This document shows, one piece after another, positions 44,757 to 52,334 of a stretch of DNA of 64,000 nt. Source of the DNA: Kordiimonas marina (GTDB taxonomy: Bacteria; Pseudomonadota; Alphaproteobacteria; Sphingomonadales; Kordiimonadaceae); the NCBI RefSeq assembly GCF_023006325.1, contig NZ_JAINDF010000007.1:62001-126000 (forward strand), read 5' to 3'. A program made the translations under genes and the position numbers. The notes under the pieces are model-generated. The model made no database searches. It saw only the letters and a list, made by a program, of their open reading frames with translations, and was not told the origin of the DNA. Numbering within the stretch: the stretch's first letter is position 1; each line of letters begins with the position of its first letter.

Positions 44757-45893
44757 ATGTTCTCGGTTAACACCAACGCTGGCGCCCTGAGCGCGCTGCA
44801 GAACCTGTCGGGCACCAATAAAGTGCTCAACACCACGCAGACCCGGATCAACACCGGTCTGAAAGTGTCCTCTGCGCGCGACAATGCGGCCGCTTATTCC
44901 ATCGCCCAGAAGATGCGCGGCGACATCGCAGGCCTTAATGCCGCGAAGTCATCACTTGACCGCGCCACATCCGAGACAGATGTCGCGCTCGCTGGCGCCC
45001 AAGCTGTTTCCGACCTTCTCATCGCCATGAAAGAAAAGGCTGTTGCGGCGAAGGATGCTGGCCTCGATGTCAACAGCCGCACCGCGCTCAATGATGACTT
45101 CCAGCAGCTCAAGGCACAGATTACTTCGATCGTCCAGAACGCCAGCTTCAACGGCAAGAACCTGCTGACCGGCGATAGCCTTAGCGCCATCACCACAGCG
45201 GACGGCAGCAGCGCCAACACCATCAGCACCACCGTCACTTCGCTGACGCTCAGCTCGCTCGCGCTCGATACCGCTAGTGTTTCAACAGTCGGCGGCACGT
45301 CATATACCGTTACACCCGCATATACGCCGAACACATCGGCGTACCCCTTCGACACCTGGCTTGCAGGCAATACCGGCGCAGATGCTGCATTCACTCAGGC
45401 GTTCCAGCGCGAAGGCTGGATTTCGGGCGGGCAAACAGCTTCTGGTCTCGTGGATGGCACCACCAAACCAAGTGACGTCAACCCGGCGCTCACCCAGTGG
45501 TTTGTTGACGATGCCACATGGACCTTTAAGAGCCCCTATATTTCAGTCGGCACCGTTTCCGGTGTCGGTGGATATGCCGTCGTCGGCGGAACCTTTGCCT
45601 CTGGCGGCAGCTCCGGCGCTGATGCTGCCGTCTCTGCTATCGACGCCGCCATCAGCACCGTGAACTCCGTGCTCTCGAAGCTGGGCTCGACCTCCAACCG
45701 GCTCGACACCCAAAAGGGATTCGCCGGCAAGCTTTCTGACGCGCTGACCACCGGCGTCGGCAACCTGGTGGATGCGGACATGGCCAAGGAAAGCGCCAAC
45801 CTGCAATCCTACCAGACCAAGCAACAACTCGGTCTTCAAGCCCTCAGTATCGCCAACCAAGCCCCGCAGAGTATCCTGTCGCTGTTCCGTTAG
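44757..45893 (+). CDS. Flagellin
   Basis: A 378-residue flagellin. The N-terminal D0/D1 part (residues 1-140) is classic ([11 protein letters not shown] near 4, Ser-Ala-Arg-Asp-Asn-Ala-Ala near 39) and so is the C-terminal part ([10 protein letters not shown] near 335, ending Ile-Leu-Ser-Leu-Phe-Arg). Residues about 160-290 are a variable, Ser/Thr/Gly/aromatic-rich central domain with no similarity I recognise. No other flagellar gene is near, so it is an isolated flagellin. The ATG follows AGAAGA; promoter given separately. Confidence 0.96.
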
Positions 45894-46014
45894 GGCCATG
45901 CGCCCCCGAAGGACAGGCCGTAGCCACCCGCTGCGGCCTTTGTCATTTGCATCCATCCCGCCCGGTGCTATGGATAGCCGCGAACGCAGGCCGTATCTGA
46001 GGAAAATGCACGCT

Positions 46015-47055
46015 ATGACCGAAAGCCCGATCAAGCTCACCGAATATAGCCACGGCGCCGGGTGCGGCTGCAAAATCTCGCCCAAGGTGCTGGACACCAT
46101 CCTGACCAGCGCGCTCTCGATCGCGCCGGACCCGCACCTCTTGGTCGGCAATGCGAGCCGGGATGACGCCGCCGCCTATGACATCGGGGGTGGTCAGGCG
46201 ATCCTCAGTACCACCGACTTTTTCATGCCGATCGCCGATGACCCGTTCGACTTCGGCCGTATCGCCGCCACCAACGCCATCAGCGACATTTACGCCATGG
46301 GCGGCAGGCCCCTGATGGCGATCGCCATCCTCGGCTGGCCGGTCAATACCCTGCCCGCCGATGTGGCAGCGCGGGTGATCGATGGCGGCCGCAGCGTCTG
46401 CCGCGATGCCGGTATCCCGCTCGCCGGGGGCCACAGCATCGACGCGCCGGAGCCGATCTTCGGCCTCGCCGTCACGGGCCAGGTGGAAACCAAGCACCTG
46501 AAACAGAACAACACGGCGGAAGCAGGCACGGCGCTTTACCTGACCAAACCGCTCGGCGTCGGCATCCTCACCACCGCGCAGAAGCAGAAGAAGCTTAGAC
46601 CTGAGCATGAAACGCTGGCGCGTGACACCATGTGCAAACTCAACAGCATCGGCGCCACCCTCGCGCCGCTCAGTTGCGTGACCGCGATGACCGACGTCAC
46701 CGGTTTCGGCCTGATGGGCCACCTGATCGAGATGTGCGAAGGCAGCGGCGTGCGCGCGGTGATCGACTATGACGCCGTCCCGACCCTTGGCCCGGTGAAG
46801 GACTATCTGGCCGCAGGCTGCGTGCCCGGCGGCACCGGCCGCAATTTCGAAAGCTATGGCGACAAGGCCGGACCGATGAGCGACGAACAGCGGCTGATCC
46901 TGTGTGACCCGCAAACCAGTGGCGGCCTGCTGATCGCCGCCCACAGCGACGGCCTGGGGGACATGCTGGCCGCGTTCGAGGCCGCCGGGATGACGCTGGA
47001 GCCGATCGGTGAGCTGATCCCGGCAGGTGACGGCCCCCTGGTGACGGTGCGCTGA
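46015..47055 (+). CDS. selD: Selenide, water dikinase
   Basis: Makes selenophosphate from selenide and ATP. The 346-residue protein has the catalytic Gly-Ala-Gly-Cys-Gly-Cys-Lys-Ile near residue 14 with Cys, not selenocysteine, at the active site, and [11 protein letters not shown] near 86. Start at ATG 46015, with GAGGAA ahead; an ATG three codons earlier is possible. The mnmH gene follows after four bases, so the selenophosphate here is meant mainly for tRNA 2-selenouridine. No selA or selB is in the window. Confidence 0.95.
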
Positions 47056-47059
47056 GCCC

Positions 47060-48160
47060 ATGGCTGAGAACCGCCCCAATACCGACGACTATAAGCGCCT
47101 GTTCCTCGAAGACGTGCCGATGATGGACATGCGCGCGCCGGTGGAATTCAGCCACGGCGCCTTCCCCACGGCCACCAGCCTGCCGCTGATGACCGACAAG
47201 GAACGCGAAACCGTCGGCATCACCTACAAGGAAAAAGGCCAGGACGCCGCGATCGAGATGGGGCACAGCCTGGTCCACGGCGACATCAAGGAAGCCCGCG
47301 TTGCCGCCTGGAAGGCCTTCGCCGAGGCGCACCCCGAGGGCTATCTCTACTGTTTCCGCGGCGGGCTCAGGTCGCAGATTTCCCAAGGCTGGCTCAAAGA
47401 AGCTGGGGTGCCTTACCCGCTCGTCAAGGGTGGCTACAAGGCCATGCGCCGCTTCCTGATCGAGACGACCGAGCGCATCGCGGCCAATGAGGAGTTCATC
47501 ATCGTCGGCGGCCGCACCGGCACCGGCAAAACCGTGGTCATCAATGCCATCGAAAAATCAGTCGACCTCGAAGGCCTCGCCAACCACCGGGGCTCCAGCT
47601 TCGGGCGCCGGATCGGCGACCAGCCGACGCCGATCAATTTCGAGAATGCGCTCGCGATCCAGCTTCTGAAGGTCAGCGAACGTCTGAAGGGACCGATCTT
47701 CCTCGAAGATGAAAGCAACCGTATCGGTGGGCTCGGCCTGCCGCTCCCCATCGCGGAGCGCATGAGCGAATGGCCGCTCGCCCTCATCGAAGAACCGATG
47801 GAAGCCCGCATCGACAATATCCACCGCGACTATGTCACCGGCCTTCTGGCCGAGCATGAAACCGCCTACGGCGACAAGGGCTTCGAAAGCTTCGACGAGT
47901 TCCTGACAAGCGCGCTTTACCGCGTACGCAAAAGGCTCGGCGGCGCGCGCTACGCGGACATCAACACGCTTCTGCGCACCGCGCTCGACATCCATCGGGA
48001 GAGTGGCAACACCGATGCCCACCGTGCCTGGATCGAGGCCCTGCTGACCCAATATTACGACCCGATGTATGATTACCAGCTGTCGCAAAAGACCCAGAGG
48101 ATTCTGTTCAAAGGCACCGGCGCCGAGCTGATCGCCTGGCAAAAAGCCACCTATGGCTGA
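47060..48160 (+). CDS. mnmH: tRNA 2-selenouridine synthase
   Basis: Also known as SelU/YbbB. It replaces sulfur by selenium at the wobble 2-thiouridine of some tRNAs, with selenophosphate from SelD. The N-terminal rhodanese domain (residues about 10-130) carries the active Cys in Tyr-Cys-Phe-Arg-Gly-Gly-Leu-Arg-Ser near 95; the P-loop domain begins with Gly-Gly-Arg-Thr-Gly-Thr-Gly-Lys-Thr near 150. Length 366 is standard. It is in an operon with selD, with four bases between. The product should need 2-thiouridine tRNA made by MnmA. Confidence 0.96.
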   Translation: MAENRPNTDDYKRLFLEDVPMMDMRAPVEFSHGAFPTATSLPLMTDKERETVGITYKEKGQDAAIEMGHSLVHGDIKEARVAAWKAFAEAHPEGYLYCFRGGLRSQISQGWLKEAGVPYPLVKGGYKAMRRFLIETTERIAANEEFIIVGGRTGTGKTVVINAIEKSVDLEGLANHRGSSFGRRIGDQPTPINFENALAIQLLKVSERLKGPIFLEDESNRIGGLGLPLPIAERMSEWPLALIEEPMEARIDNIHRDYVTGLLAEHETAYGDKGFESFDEFLTSALYRVRKRLGGARYADINTLLRTALDIHRESGNTDAHRAWIEALLTQYYDPMYDYQLSQKTQRILFKGTGAELIAWQKATYG

Positions 48161-50530: not shown

Positions 50531-50852
50531 AGGGGTCAACCCCCGCGTGCGAGTCAAGCGCGATCATCACCCTGATTTTTGACAAAAAACCGATTCATGA
50601 CCCTCCCTGAAACCCGCAGAAGCCCTGGGGTTACGGGCCAAAAATGGCCGAAATCCGCCGCAAAAATTTGATCACAAAAAAAAGGTTGCAATCGGGGTAA
50701 AATGCGCGCATTTGCGCCTTCAGACGTAAGAGCGCACGTGCCACGACAAACCGTCATAGGGTTCGGACCGTACGGGTAACGACGCAAATCGTCCTTTGTT
50801 GATTGGCTGACTTCGGGAAGGGGTCGGCAGGATTGATTGAGGGGTTTGCCGG

Positions 50853-50999
50853 ATGGTCCGCATGAGTAAAGTGCAGCGTGCGCTGCATCACATTTCATCC
50901 ACCCAGATTGACATGGCAGAAAAGCATTTTCTGCCGCCCGAGATATTTGACTATTTCTCGGCCGTGCTGGAGCTGAGCCATAGCCCCGCGCATTCCTGA
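50853..50999 (+). CDS. Leader ORF of 48 codons ahead of decarboxylase gene
   Basis: Starting at ATG 50853 (a second ATG is three codons on) with GAGGGG eight bases ahead, a frame of 48 codons ends with TGA at 50997-50999, 105 bases before the decarboxylase ATG. The product is Asp/Glu/His-rich with Phe-Asp-Tyr-Phe-Ser-Ala-Val-Leu-Glu-Leu near residues 33-42. It shows no signal peptide and no known domain. Position, good ribosome site and the hairpins right after its stop make it a candidate leader peptide, as known for some ornithine decarboxylase genes in other bacteria. Translation is unproven. Confidence 0.5.
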   Translation: MVRMSKVQRALHHISSTQIDMAEKHFLPPEIFDYFSAVLELSHSPAHS

Positions 51000-51015
51000 A
51001 ACAGGATGCGCTGAG

Positions 51016-51104
51016 GCCGGGGAACCCCCGGCACCAATCTGGGCCCTGCAAACCGTGAAAGCGCAGGGCATTGTCCTTATCCTCCATTTGCAAGGACCAC
51101 GACG
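51016..51104 (+). promoter_or_regulatory. Structured leader with sequestered ribosome site (speF-like)
   Basis: Between leader ORF and decarboxylase ATG three stems lie in a row: GCCGGGG / CCCCGGC (51016-51032), GCCCTGC / GCAGGGC (51043-51049 with 51063-51069) and GTCCTT / AAGGAC (51073-51078 with 51092-51097). The last holds the Shine-Dalgarno AAGGA, eight bases before ATG 51105. An RNA element called speF is known ahead of ornithine decarboxylase genes in alphaproteobacteria; this leader may be it, but I cannot align to that family. The 322 bases 50531-50852 hold no gene I can support; the promoter should lie there. Confidence 0.55.
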
Positions 51105-52334
51105 ATGAAGATTTTGGAGGCTTTTCAAGGCACTGATGTATCCCGCGCCGATGCGCTGGAAGGTCTGAAGTTTTATGGCAGCGCCGCCCGTGCGATCGAC
51201 GGCGAAGACAGCAACGATGCCGTCCATATGCTGTTCCCCGAGAAGCTCGAGGCGGCGGCACATGAGTTCCTGACCGGCTTCCGGGGCGCGAGCCTCTATG
51301 CCGTCAAGGCCAACCCGCATCCGGCCGTGCTCAAGCTTTTGTGGCGCGCGGGCGTGCGCCGGTTTGATGTGGCATCACTGCGCGAGGTGGAATTGGTGTC
51401 CGACCTGCTGCCGGGCGCCGAGCTTTATTTCATGCATCCGGTCAAAAGCCGCCAGGCGATCCGCTTCGCTTACGGCCGCGGTGTGCGCGCTTTCTCCTTC
51501 GACAGCATGGATGAGCTCAACAAGATCGAGGCCGAAACCGGTGGCGCGTCCGACATCAGCCTGTTCCTGCGCCTTCAGGTCGAAGGCGGCGGGGCGGCTT
51601 ATGCGCTCGGCGGAAAATTCGGCGCGACGCTGATGGAAGCGCCGCTTCTGCTCTCGCGCGCCCGTCGCATGGCGCAGAAAATCGGCGTCTGCTTCCATGT
51701 CGGCTCGCAGTGCATGCAGCCTGGGGCCTACCGCGAAGCGCTCGTGAAAGTATCCGCCATGCTGCAGGGTGCTGGCATCAGTCTCGATGTCATCGATGTC
51801 GGCGGTGGCTTCCCCGTACCCTACCCGGGCATGGAACCACCCGCGATGCAGGTCTATTTTGATGCCATTCATACGGCACTTGATGACTGCGGTTTCGCGG
51901 ACACCGAAACCCTGTGCGAACCTGGCCGCGCGCTTGTCGCCAAAGCCGGGGCCGTTGCCGTGCGCGTGGAAATGCGCCGGGGCGATGACCTCTATCTCAA
52001 TGACGGCACGTATGGCGCGCTCTTCGACGCCGGGGTGCCCGGCTGGCAGTTCCCGATGGCGGTCCATACCGCCGACGGGCGCAAGCTGGCGCTCGGCCAG
52101 ACCGGGTTCCGCTTCTTCGGCCCGACCTGCGACAGCTGCGACAAGATGGAAGGCCCCTTCTTCCTGCCCGACGATATCGAGGAAGGCGACTGGATCGTCA
52201 TCCAGCATCTGGGCGCGTATGGCTTCACCATGCAGACCCGGTTCAACGGCTTCTATTCCGAAGACTTGGTGGCGGTTGAGGACATCGCGGCCAGCAATGG
52301 AACAGTTATGTTTCCGGTCCCGATAGCAGTTTAA
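51105..52334 (+). CDS. Ornithine decarboxylase-type (type III fold) PLP enzyme
   Basis: A 409-residue decarboxylase of the alanine racemase-like fold (ornithine/diaminopimelate/arginine group). The PLP lysine is in Tyr-Ala-Val-Lys-Ala-Asn-Pro near residue 68, His-Val-Gly-Ser-Gln near 200, Gly-Gly-Gly-Phe-Pro near 232, Glu-Pro-Gly-Arg near 268 and the Gly-Pro-Thr-Cys-Asp-Ser-Cys-Asp motif near 343 with the substrate-contacting Cys. Missing long N- and C-domains rule out speA-type arginine decarboxylase. Ornithine to putrescine is most likely, supported by the long leader. It acts in polyamine synthesis in the cytosol. Confidence 0.9.
   Translation: MKILEAFQGTDVSRADALEGLKFYGSAARAIDGEDSNDAVHMLFPEKLEAAAHEFLTGFRGASLYAVKANPHPAVLKLLWRAGVRRFDVASLREVELVSDLLPGAELYFMHPVKSRQAIRFAYGRGVRAFSFDSMDELNKIEAETGGASDISLFLRLQVEGGGAAYALGGKFGATLMEAPLLLSRARRMAQKIGVCFHVGSQCMQPGAYREALVKVSAMLQGAGISLDVIDVGGGFPVPYPGMEPPAMQVYFDAIHTALDDCGFADTETLCEPGRALVAKAGAVAVRVEMRRGDDLYLNDGTYGALFDAGVPGWQFPMAVHTADGRKLALGQTGFRFFGPTCDSCDKMEGPFFLPDDIEEGDWIVIQHLGAYGFTMQTRFNGFYSEDLVAVEDIAASNGTVMFPVPIAV

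Follow-up and report, generated by a model that had tools for sequence, protein, structure and literature searches.

What does a long leader with a small open reading frame (ORF) do in front of an ornithine decarboxylase (ODC) gene, whose product is the enzyme of the first step of polyamine synthesis? The question is raised by a gap of 574 bases (50531-51104) upstream of the ODC gene of Kordiimonas marina, located within a stretch of 64,000 nucleotides that was analysed as a whole and is hereafter called the window. An earlier note on this DNA had described in the gap a 48-codon ORF at 50853-50999, the GAGGGG site preceding it and three stems following it, all of which lie where it had placed them (Table 1). 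It had further suggested that translation of the small ORF, or binding of ornithine or a polyamine, opens the last of these stems, which pairs the ribosome site of the ODC gene. On balance, we favour a two-layer translational leader, in which an RNA would gate translation of the small upstream ORF (uORF) and uORF translation would in turn license ODC expression.

The closest solved structures to the window ODC are those of lysine/ornithine and ornithine decarboxylases. The enterobacterial SpeF enzyme has a fold that differs from the alanine-racemase fold (PF02784) of the window ODC.

Table 1. Features of the ODC leader and its downstream gene, in coordinates of the window.
Feature	Position	Strand	Details
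Conserved promoter	50686..50714	+	−35 TTGCAA (50686-50691), 17-nt spacer, −10 CATTTG (50709-50714)
ar45-like 5′ domain	50723..50793	+	Covariance models R1 and R2; position matches that of Rfam ar45 loci
Hairpin TCCTT.GTTGATTGGCTGAC / GTCGGCAGGATTGATTGAGGGG, masking the small ORF's Shine-Dalgarno sequence	50792..50844	+	Comparison with shuffles; pair-preserving changes
GAGGGG, Shine-Dalgarno sequence preceding the small ORF	50839..50844	+	Purine run kept a few nt 5′ of the start codon in relatives
Leader ORF, 48 codons plus TGA, MVRMSKVQRALHHISSTQIDMAEKHFLPPEIFDYFSAVLELSHSPAHS	50853..50999	+	Frame and C-terminus kept in relatives; in-frame purifying selection
Hairpin GCGCAT.TCCTGAAACAGG.ATGCGC, across the leader ORF's stop codon	50988..51011	+	Also in relatives, with pair-preserving changes
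Hairpin GCCGGGG-AAC-CCCCGGC	51016..51032	+	Part of the consensus fold of six relatives; pairs changed on both sides
Hairpin GCCCTGC...GCAGGGC	51043..51069	+	In the minimum free energy structure; positional counterparts only in relatives
GTCCTT...AAGGAC, a weak stem covering the ODC ribosome site	51073..51097	+	z −1.22; not in the consensus fold
ODC, 409 aa, alanine-racemase-type PLP fold	51105..52334	+	PF02784, PF00278; PDB relatives 5gjm, 2plj, 1d7k

A conserved promoter and RNA element upstream of the leader ORF

In nearly all of 60 homologous leaders, inspection by eye reveals a CTTGCA box, a spacer of 17 or 18 nt and a box resembling CATATG or TATATT, placed at a constant distance of ~8 nt 5′ of a conserved RNA element. 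A strict scan of the window leader for the sigma-70 consensus returned no promoter match. Because the conserved promoter ends ~8 nt 5′ of the element, the transcript probably starts at ~50721, and a start 3′ of 51016, which the earlier note had named as the finding that would count against its reading, is unlikely.

The RNA element itself, at 50723-50848 and thus 5′ of the small ORF, was absent from that note. ODC leaders of related genomes have in common, upstream of the ORF, the series GACGTAAGAGCGCACGTGCC...GTACGGGTAACGACGC...CGTCCTTTGTTGATTGG...GGATTGATTGAGGGG, and RNAalifold predicts for ten such leaders a 5′ domain followed by a long hairpin, in whose 3′ arm the small ORF has its Shine-Dalgarno sequence. 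In the window, the 5′ domain is closed by pairing of GACG (50723-50726) with CGTC (50790-50793), and inner pairs join GCG (50732-50734) to CGC (50783-50785) and CGT (50737-50739) to ACG (50779-50781). Its core consists of GCACGTGCC and GTAACGACG, after which comes a T-rich stretch. Among relatives, the closing stem varies (GACGC/GCGTC, GCCC/GGGC, CCGTC/GACGG) through changes that look compensatory; in single sequences, it did not reach significance over shuffles.

The masking hairpin is supported by both its stability (z −4.32; none of 200 shuffles as stable) and its evolution, as 17 of its 19 pairs show two-sided pair-preserving changes across 58 distinct sequences. For the element as a whole, 88.9% of cells are paired in these 58 sequences and 21 of the 25 pairs have changed on both sides, with a covariation score of 0.475 as compared to 0.201 after shuffling and no more than 0.153 after sliding, all in an alignment fitted to a covariance model, R1, which was built from ten leaders and whose structure was obtained by RNAalifold on their MAFFT alignment.

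Searches with R1 matched 39 of the 385 genomes of an alphaproteobacterial sample covering the class and, within the order, 19 of 398, while a second model, R2, built from 42 sequences with no speF-type leader among them, matched 69 of the 385 sampled genomes. The association with ODC is close to exclusive: an ODC gene follows 57 of 60 copies and 44 of 45 further copies, and the element precedes two ODC subfamilies whose mutual identity is only ~33%. Many genomes (G469, G395, G302, G093, G327, G466 and others) contain two or three copies, located 5′ of ODC paralogues from both deep subfamilies. In four loci (L132, L133, L151, L152), ~1.4 kb lie between the element and ODC.

A probable gate in two layouts

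Which start codon follows the masked site differs between copies. It is that of ODC itself in L055, L056, L059, L060, L062, L068, L069, L079 and others, as well as in the further copies L124, L128, L130, L142 and L149, while in most other copies, including the window, it opens a short uORF. Both layouts are found within a single genus (direct in L059 and L062, with a short ORF in L057), and the ODC tree requires at least six changes between them. Since the two layouts alternate while the element remains near-exclusively in front of ODC, the hairpin would act on initiation of whichever ORF comes next, with the leader ORF as an interposed module; this pattern is the strongest argument for such a view. 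Genomes with the direct layout would also favour the same direction of control, i.e. an open gate giving more ODC. In L055, ODC starts directly at the conserved ATGGTCCG, which in the window starts the leader ORF. L054, from the same genus as L055, has only a two-codon ORF at that place, perhaps a decaying leader ORF.

Relationship to the speF and ar45 leaders

To our knowledge, the speF leader has been an orphan among conserved RNAs since 2005, with no ligand found in twenty years. The earlier note had pointed to the occurrence of this element ahead of alphaproteobacterial ODC genes, and the link to the window leader holds for the 5′ part by homology but not for the Rfam speF model itself, which finds no match. 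Neither speF nor ar45 of Rfam matched the window leader at the gathering threshold or up to E 10; speF was also without a match in the window's own genome, and ar45 in the window-type relatives scanned. Membership of RF00518 (speF; curated threshold 37 bits) or RF02347 (ar45; 40 bits) by model score was rejected, as these thresholds were not reached. Two other Rfam matches, to Ms_IGR-5 (E 0.7) and CRISPR-DR16 (E 7.6), are weak and were put down to chance.

The homology emerges from searches in the opposite direction. In three speF-matching loci that were scanned, Rfam ar45 lies directly 5′ of speF, and both R1 and R2 match the ar45 region, extend into the start of speF and end at a conserved GAAGAGG. 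R2 matched all 12 of 12 held-out ar45+speF loci, each at the ar45 start and with E values from 5e-7 to 5e-4, as compared to 0.76 at best in controls. Because this model had seen no speF-type leader in training, we conclude that the window element is homologous to these leaders and belongs, as a divergent form, to the speF/ar45 lineage. The homologous 5′ domain and the hairpin bearing the Shine-Dalgarno sequence occur in the window in the same order upstream of ODC, and in the ODC tree the speF-type leaders form one supported clade, which lies inside the wider set of ODCs preceded by the element.

The speF/ar45 leader (RF00518 plus RF02347) is, like that of the window, found before ODC and has the GCACGTGCC / GCAACGACG core in common with it, likewise followed by a T-rich stretch and a long hairpin with a Shine-Dalgarno-like purine run. 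In contrast to the window, speF-type leaders carry extra conserved blocks 3′ of the purine run and lack a consistent uORF: no consistent start codon or frame was found in ar45+RF00518 leaders. In the original description of speF, conservation starts near the transcription start, one stem is capped by a large insertion and ~80 conserved nucleotides lie in a long bulged stem-loop (Corbino et al. 2005, PMC1273637).

The leader ORF and its peptide

The ATG of the leader ORF follows GAGGGG by 8 nt, and the ORF ends ~105 nt before the ATG of ODC. Conservation of its frame with a synonymous bias, which the earlier note had proposed as a check, was borne out by pN/pS values in related leaders, indicating selection at the protein level: 0.15 (L086/L089), 0.28-0.38 (L084/85/88) and 0.31 (L058/L061) in frame, as compared to 0.65-2.06 in other frames. 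For the window and L083, whose ODCs are 83% identical, the overall pN/pS is 0.58 in frame, as compared to 0.78 and 1.38 for the two alternative frames. In this pair, the C-terminal half is nearly unchanged even at silent sites, as would be expected if RNA and peptide were both constrained.

A search of the leader peptide against NCBIfam, Pfam and PDB chains, libraries that may not include SpeFL, gave no match. The most conserved part of the uORFs in the window group is their C-terminus, DYFSxVLxLxHxPAH. Other uORFs end in FWRFRFVVLDKHSP (an order-level group), GRKNPLSS or SSMRAPD, and VLDKHSP is also among the end motifs. Across these different endings, S-S or S-P occurs within the last 11 residues of 29 of 46 uORFs, as compared to 6.3 in shuffles, for a motif chosen post hoc. 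Of 46 distinct uORFs (25-70 codons), 28 have an in-frame AGT among their final nine codons, as compared to 4 and 0 in the other frames. AGT makes up 35 of 75 serine codons at uORF ends, 11 of 122 elsewhere in these uORFs and 33 of 873 within ODC genes—counts that are descriptive only because the motif was noticed post hoc and the sequences are related. This rare serine codon is kept in frame close to the uORF end in relatives such as L058, L061, L126, L169, L084, L085 and L153, while the serine preceding it is encoded freely by TCN and AGY codons. The conserved AGT suggests a constraint at the codon or nucleotide level, such as a programmed pause. The window clade is without AGT and has AGC, ACN or ATG at the corresponding place; as the AGT-serine codon of most uORFs is missing, its peptide may work differently.

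Structures between the leader ORF and ODC

The minimum free energy structure of 50985-51104 (z −4.0; none of 200 shuffles as good) comprises the three stems of the earlier note and an additional hairpin across the ORF's stop codon. A hairpin of this kind, with the stop codon in its loop or 3′ arm, recurs in nine leaders from the wider group around the window (null p from 0 to 0.075 for each leader taken singly) and in L023, and pair-preserving changes turn GCGCATC/GATGCGC into GCGCGTC/GACGCGC. The stop hairpin and the stem at 51016-51032 together reach z −4.5 and constitute the RNAalifold consensus of six relatives. Of the three stems of the earlier note, that at 51016-51032 shows two-sided changes, while the stem at 51043-51069 recurs by position only and that at 51073-51097 lies outside the consensus fold.

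This last stem, which the earlier note had made the key switch, is the weakest part of the leader: folded alone, it is equalled by 24 of 200 shuffles. A UCCU located 5′ of the AGGA at the ODC site is found in the window and three relatives of the same genus (L083, L087, L094). Masking of the ODC site beyond that of shuffled gaps was seen only in L087 and L094 (at 3% and 7% of shuffles, respectively), and shuffled window gaps mask the site equally well. Modelling a ribosome on the uORF stop codon produced no consistent opening of the ODC site across five relatives. One candidate mechanism, in which a stalled ribosome opens the ODC site through re-pairing of the 3′ arm of the stop hairpin, appears plausible by eye in the window; it was rejected, having no counterpart in L083 and L036 and inconsistent accessibility. 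A search for a universal RNA motif 3′ of the element found none beyond GC-rich words.

Comparison with known systems

The earlier note had known of no combined ORF-plus-RNA switch of this form, but there are precedents: odc1 (PMC8632094) and orf34-speF (PMC6386406) already bring together RNA structure and a small ORF in front of ODC. Closest in design is odc1 (uORF-25-1), described in Sphingomonas and its relatives, an alphaproteobacterial RNA preceding ODC in which, as in the window, a stem masks the ribosome site of a conserved leader ORF; in reporters, both starts proved to be used. It differs from the window leader in sequence and structure and has tandem UUG starts two nt apart as well as an invariant 11-aa peptide beside the ODC start (PMC8632094). 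The long stem masking the uORF ribosome site is present in the window, and the tandem UUG and the 11-aa uORF are absent. R2 did not match sphingomonad-type loci that apparently carry odc1 (best control E 0.76). A family from the same order (f5; L019, L021, L022, L024, L025, L026) has another conserved element before ODC, GCTGCCCC..GGGGACTTCC..AAGGCAGC..GGGGGTCCCTTGA, which resembles odc1; the two loci tested had no match in Rfam 15.

The orf34 (SpeFL)-speF leader of Salmonella and E. coli resembles that of the window in having a leader ORF of similar length before ODC and structures both 3′ of its stop codon and over the ODC site (PMC6386406), while peptide and RNA are different. In Salmonella, experiments bear out the logic proposed here: speF depends on translation of orf34, which counters Rho and makes the ribosome site accessible (PMC6386406). 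A similar hierarchy, with an RNA controlling a small uORF and the uORF controlling the gene, is reported for the B12 (PMC11260477) and Mbox (PMC12810186) riboswitches of Mycobacterium tuberculosis; unlike in the window, the ligands are known there, and the RNAs are unrelated. In the searchable literature, which leaves most subscription papers outside, we found no extension of speF/ar45 to these genomes, nor its covarying masking hairpin, its alternation between uORF and direct-ODC layouts or the AGT codon.

Proposed mechanism and alternatives

In the two-layer leader that we favour, the first layer (50723-50848) would consist of the 5′ domain and, after it, the hairpin that hides the Shine-Dalgarno sequence used by the next ORF, and the second of the 48-codon leader peptide, ending at the hairpin across its own stop codon. 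The 5′ domain would let the mask open, allowing ribosomes to translate the leader ORF. A ribosome reaching, and probably pausing at, the C-terminal peptide and stop codon would then prevent the stop hairpin from forming, which would keep the downstream leader open for ODC synthesis by counteracting a masked ODC site, Rho or both. If the leader were not translated, ODC would stay low. The homology, the masking hairpin, the selection on the uORF, the stop hairpin and the interchange of layouts all come from comparison between genomes. A switching role for the element, pausing of ribosomes by the leader peptide and an increase, not a decrease, of ODC through uORF translation are inferences; the signal would presumably be ornithine or a polyamine. 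By analogy with Salmonella orf34-speF (PMC6386406), licensing of ODC by leader translation is the best-supported reading.

The sensing might instead reside entirely in the peptide, which, while still inside the ribosome tunnel, would detect ornithine or a polyamine and stall at its end, leaving the RNA to set basal initiation only. Such an arrest peptide would fit the strong conservation of DYFSxVLxLxHxPAH in the window group, the distinct end motifs of other uORFs (GRKNPLSS, VLDKHSP), the S-S/S-P and AGT enrichment near the end and the precedent of enterobacterial speF. Yet genomes with the RNA element but without a uORF must regulate ODC peptide-free, the peptide end is not common class-wide and stalling cannot be read from sequence, so that we regard this as possible rather than probable. 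Conversely, the ar45-like domain could bind a small molecule as a metabolite riboswitch, with the masking hairpin as expression platform and the uORF as a passive relay. The highly conserved core (GCACGTGCC, GTAACGACG), the presence of a suitable platform, the near-exclusive association with ODC and the direct-ODC genomes, where the element alone suffices, argue for this idea, which is likewise possible rather than probable: the loop of the 5′ domain varies in both length and sequence, and in-line probing of the Agrobacterium tumefaciens speF RNA detected no binding of ornithine, lysine, diaminopimelate, putrescine, cadaverine or spermidine (PMC1273637). The same in vitro result with these six metabolites lends no support to the ornithine or polyamine ligand proposed in the earlier note.

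We consider it unlikely that the leader is a transcription attenuator, in which a terminator made up of the closing stem and the T-run would compete against the masking hairpin, yielding the ar45 ‘sRNA’ as terminated product. This would account for the T-run directly after the stem in most relatives and for the ar45 transcript that is separate from the downstream leader in Sinorhizobium meliloti and Bartonella (PMC7717549). In the window, however, the T-run amounts to no more than CCTTTGTT, a terminator was not called there, and the closing stem and the masking hairpin need not compete because they overlap by only two bases. That the region merely combines an unselected ORF with ordinary hairpins in a GC-rich leader is highly improbable: many spurious ORFs of like length do occur nearby and the stem at 51073-51097 is within chance, but covariation, frame-specific selection and the class-wide conservation of position contradict such a view.

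Beyond the two-layer leader of the window, a more speculative generalisation would make the speF/ar45 lineage a class-wide RNA gate controlling either ODC itself or a leader peptide placed in between, with the peptides as a new arrest or pausing group, many having a conserved in-frame AGT near the end, and with gate and peptide sensing polyamine status as a double sensor. At a more basic level, the comparisons suggest that ar45, as the 5′ half, and the hairpin following it form one gate on translation initiation, and that the gated ORF is often a leader peptide instead of ODC. The occurrence of both layouts within one genus constitutes a natural two-way experiment. If this picture is true, ligand searches using the RNA alone may have covered only half of the sensor.

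Elsewhere in the window, the adjacent ORFs at 45772-47055 and 47060-48160 resemble, as judged by eye from their translations only, SelD (selenophosphate synthase) and tRNA 2-selenouridine synthase (rhodanese plus P-loop), respectively.
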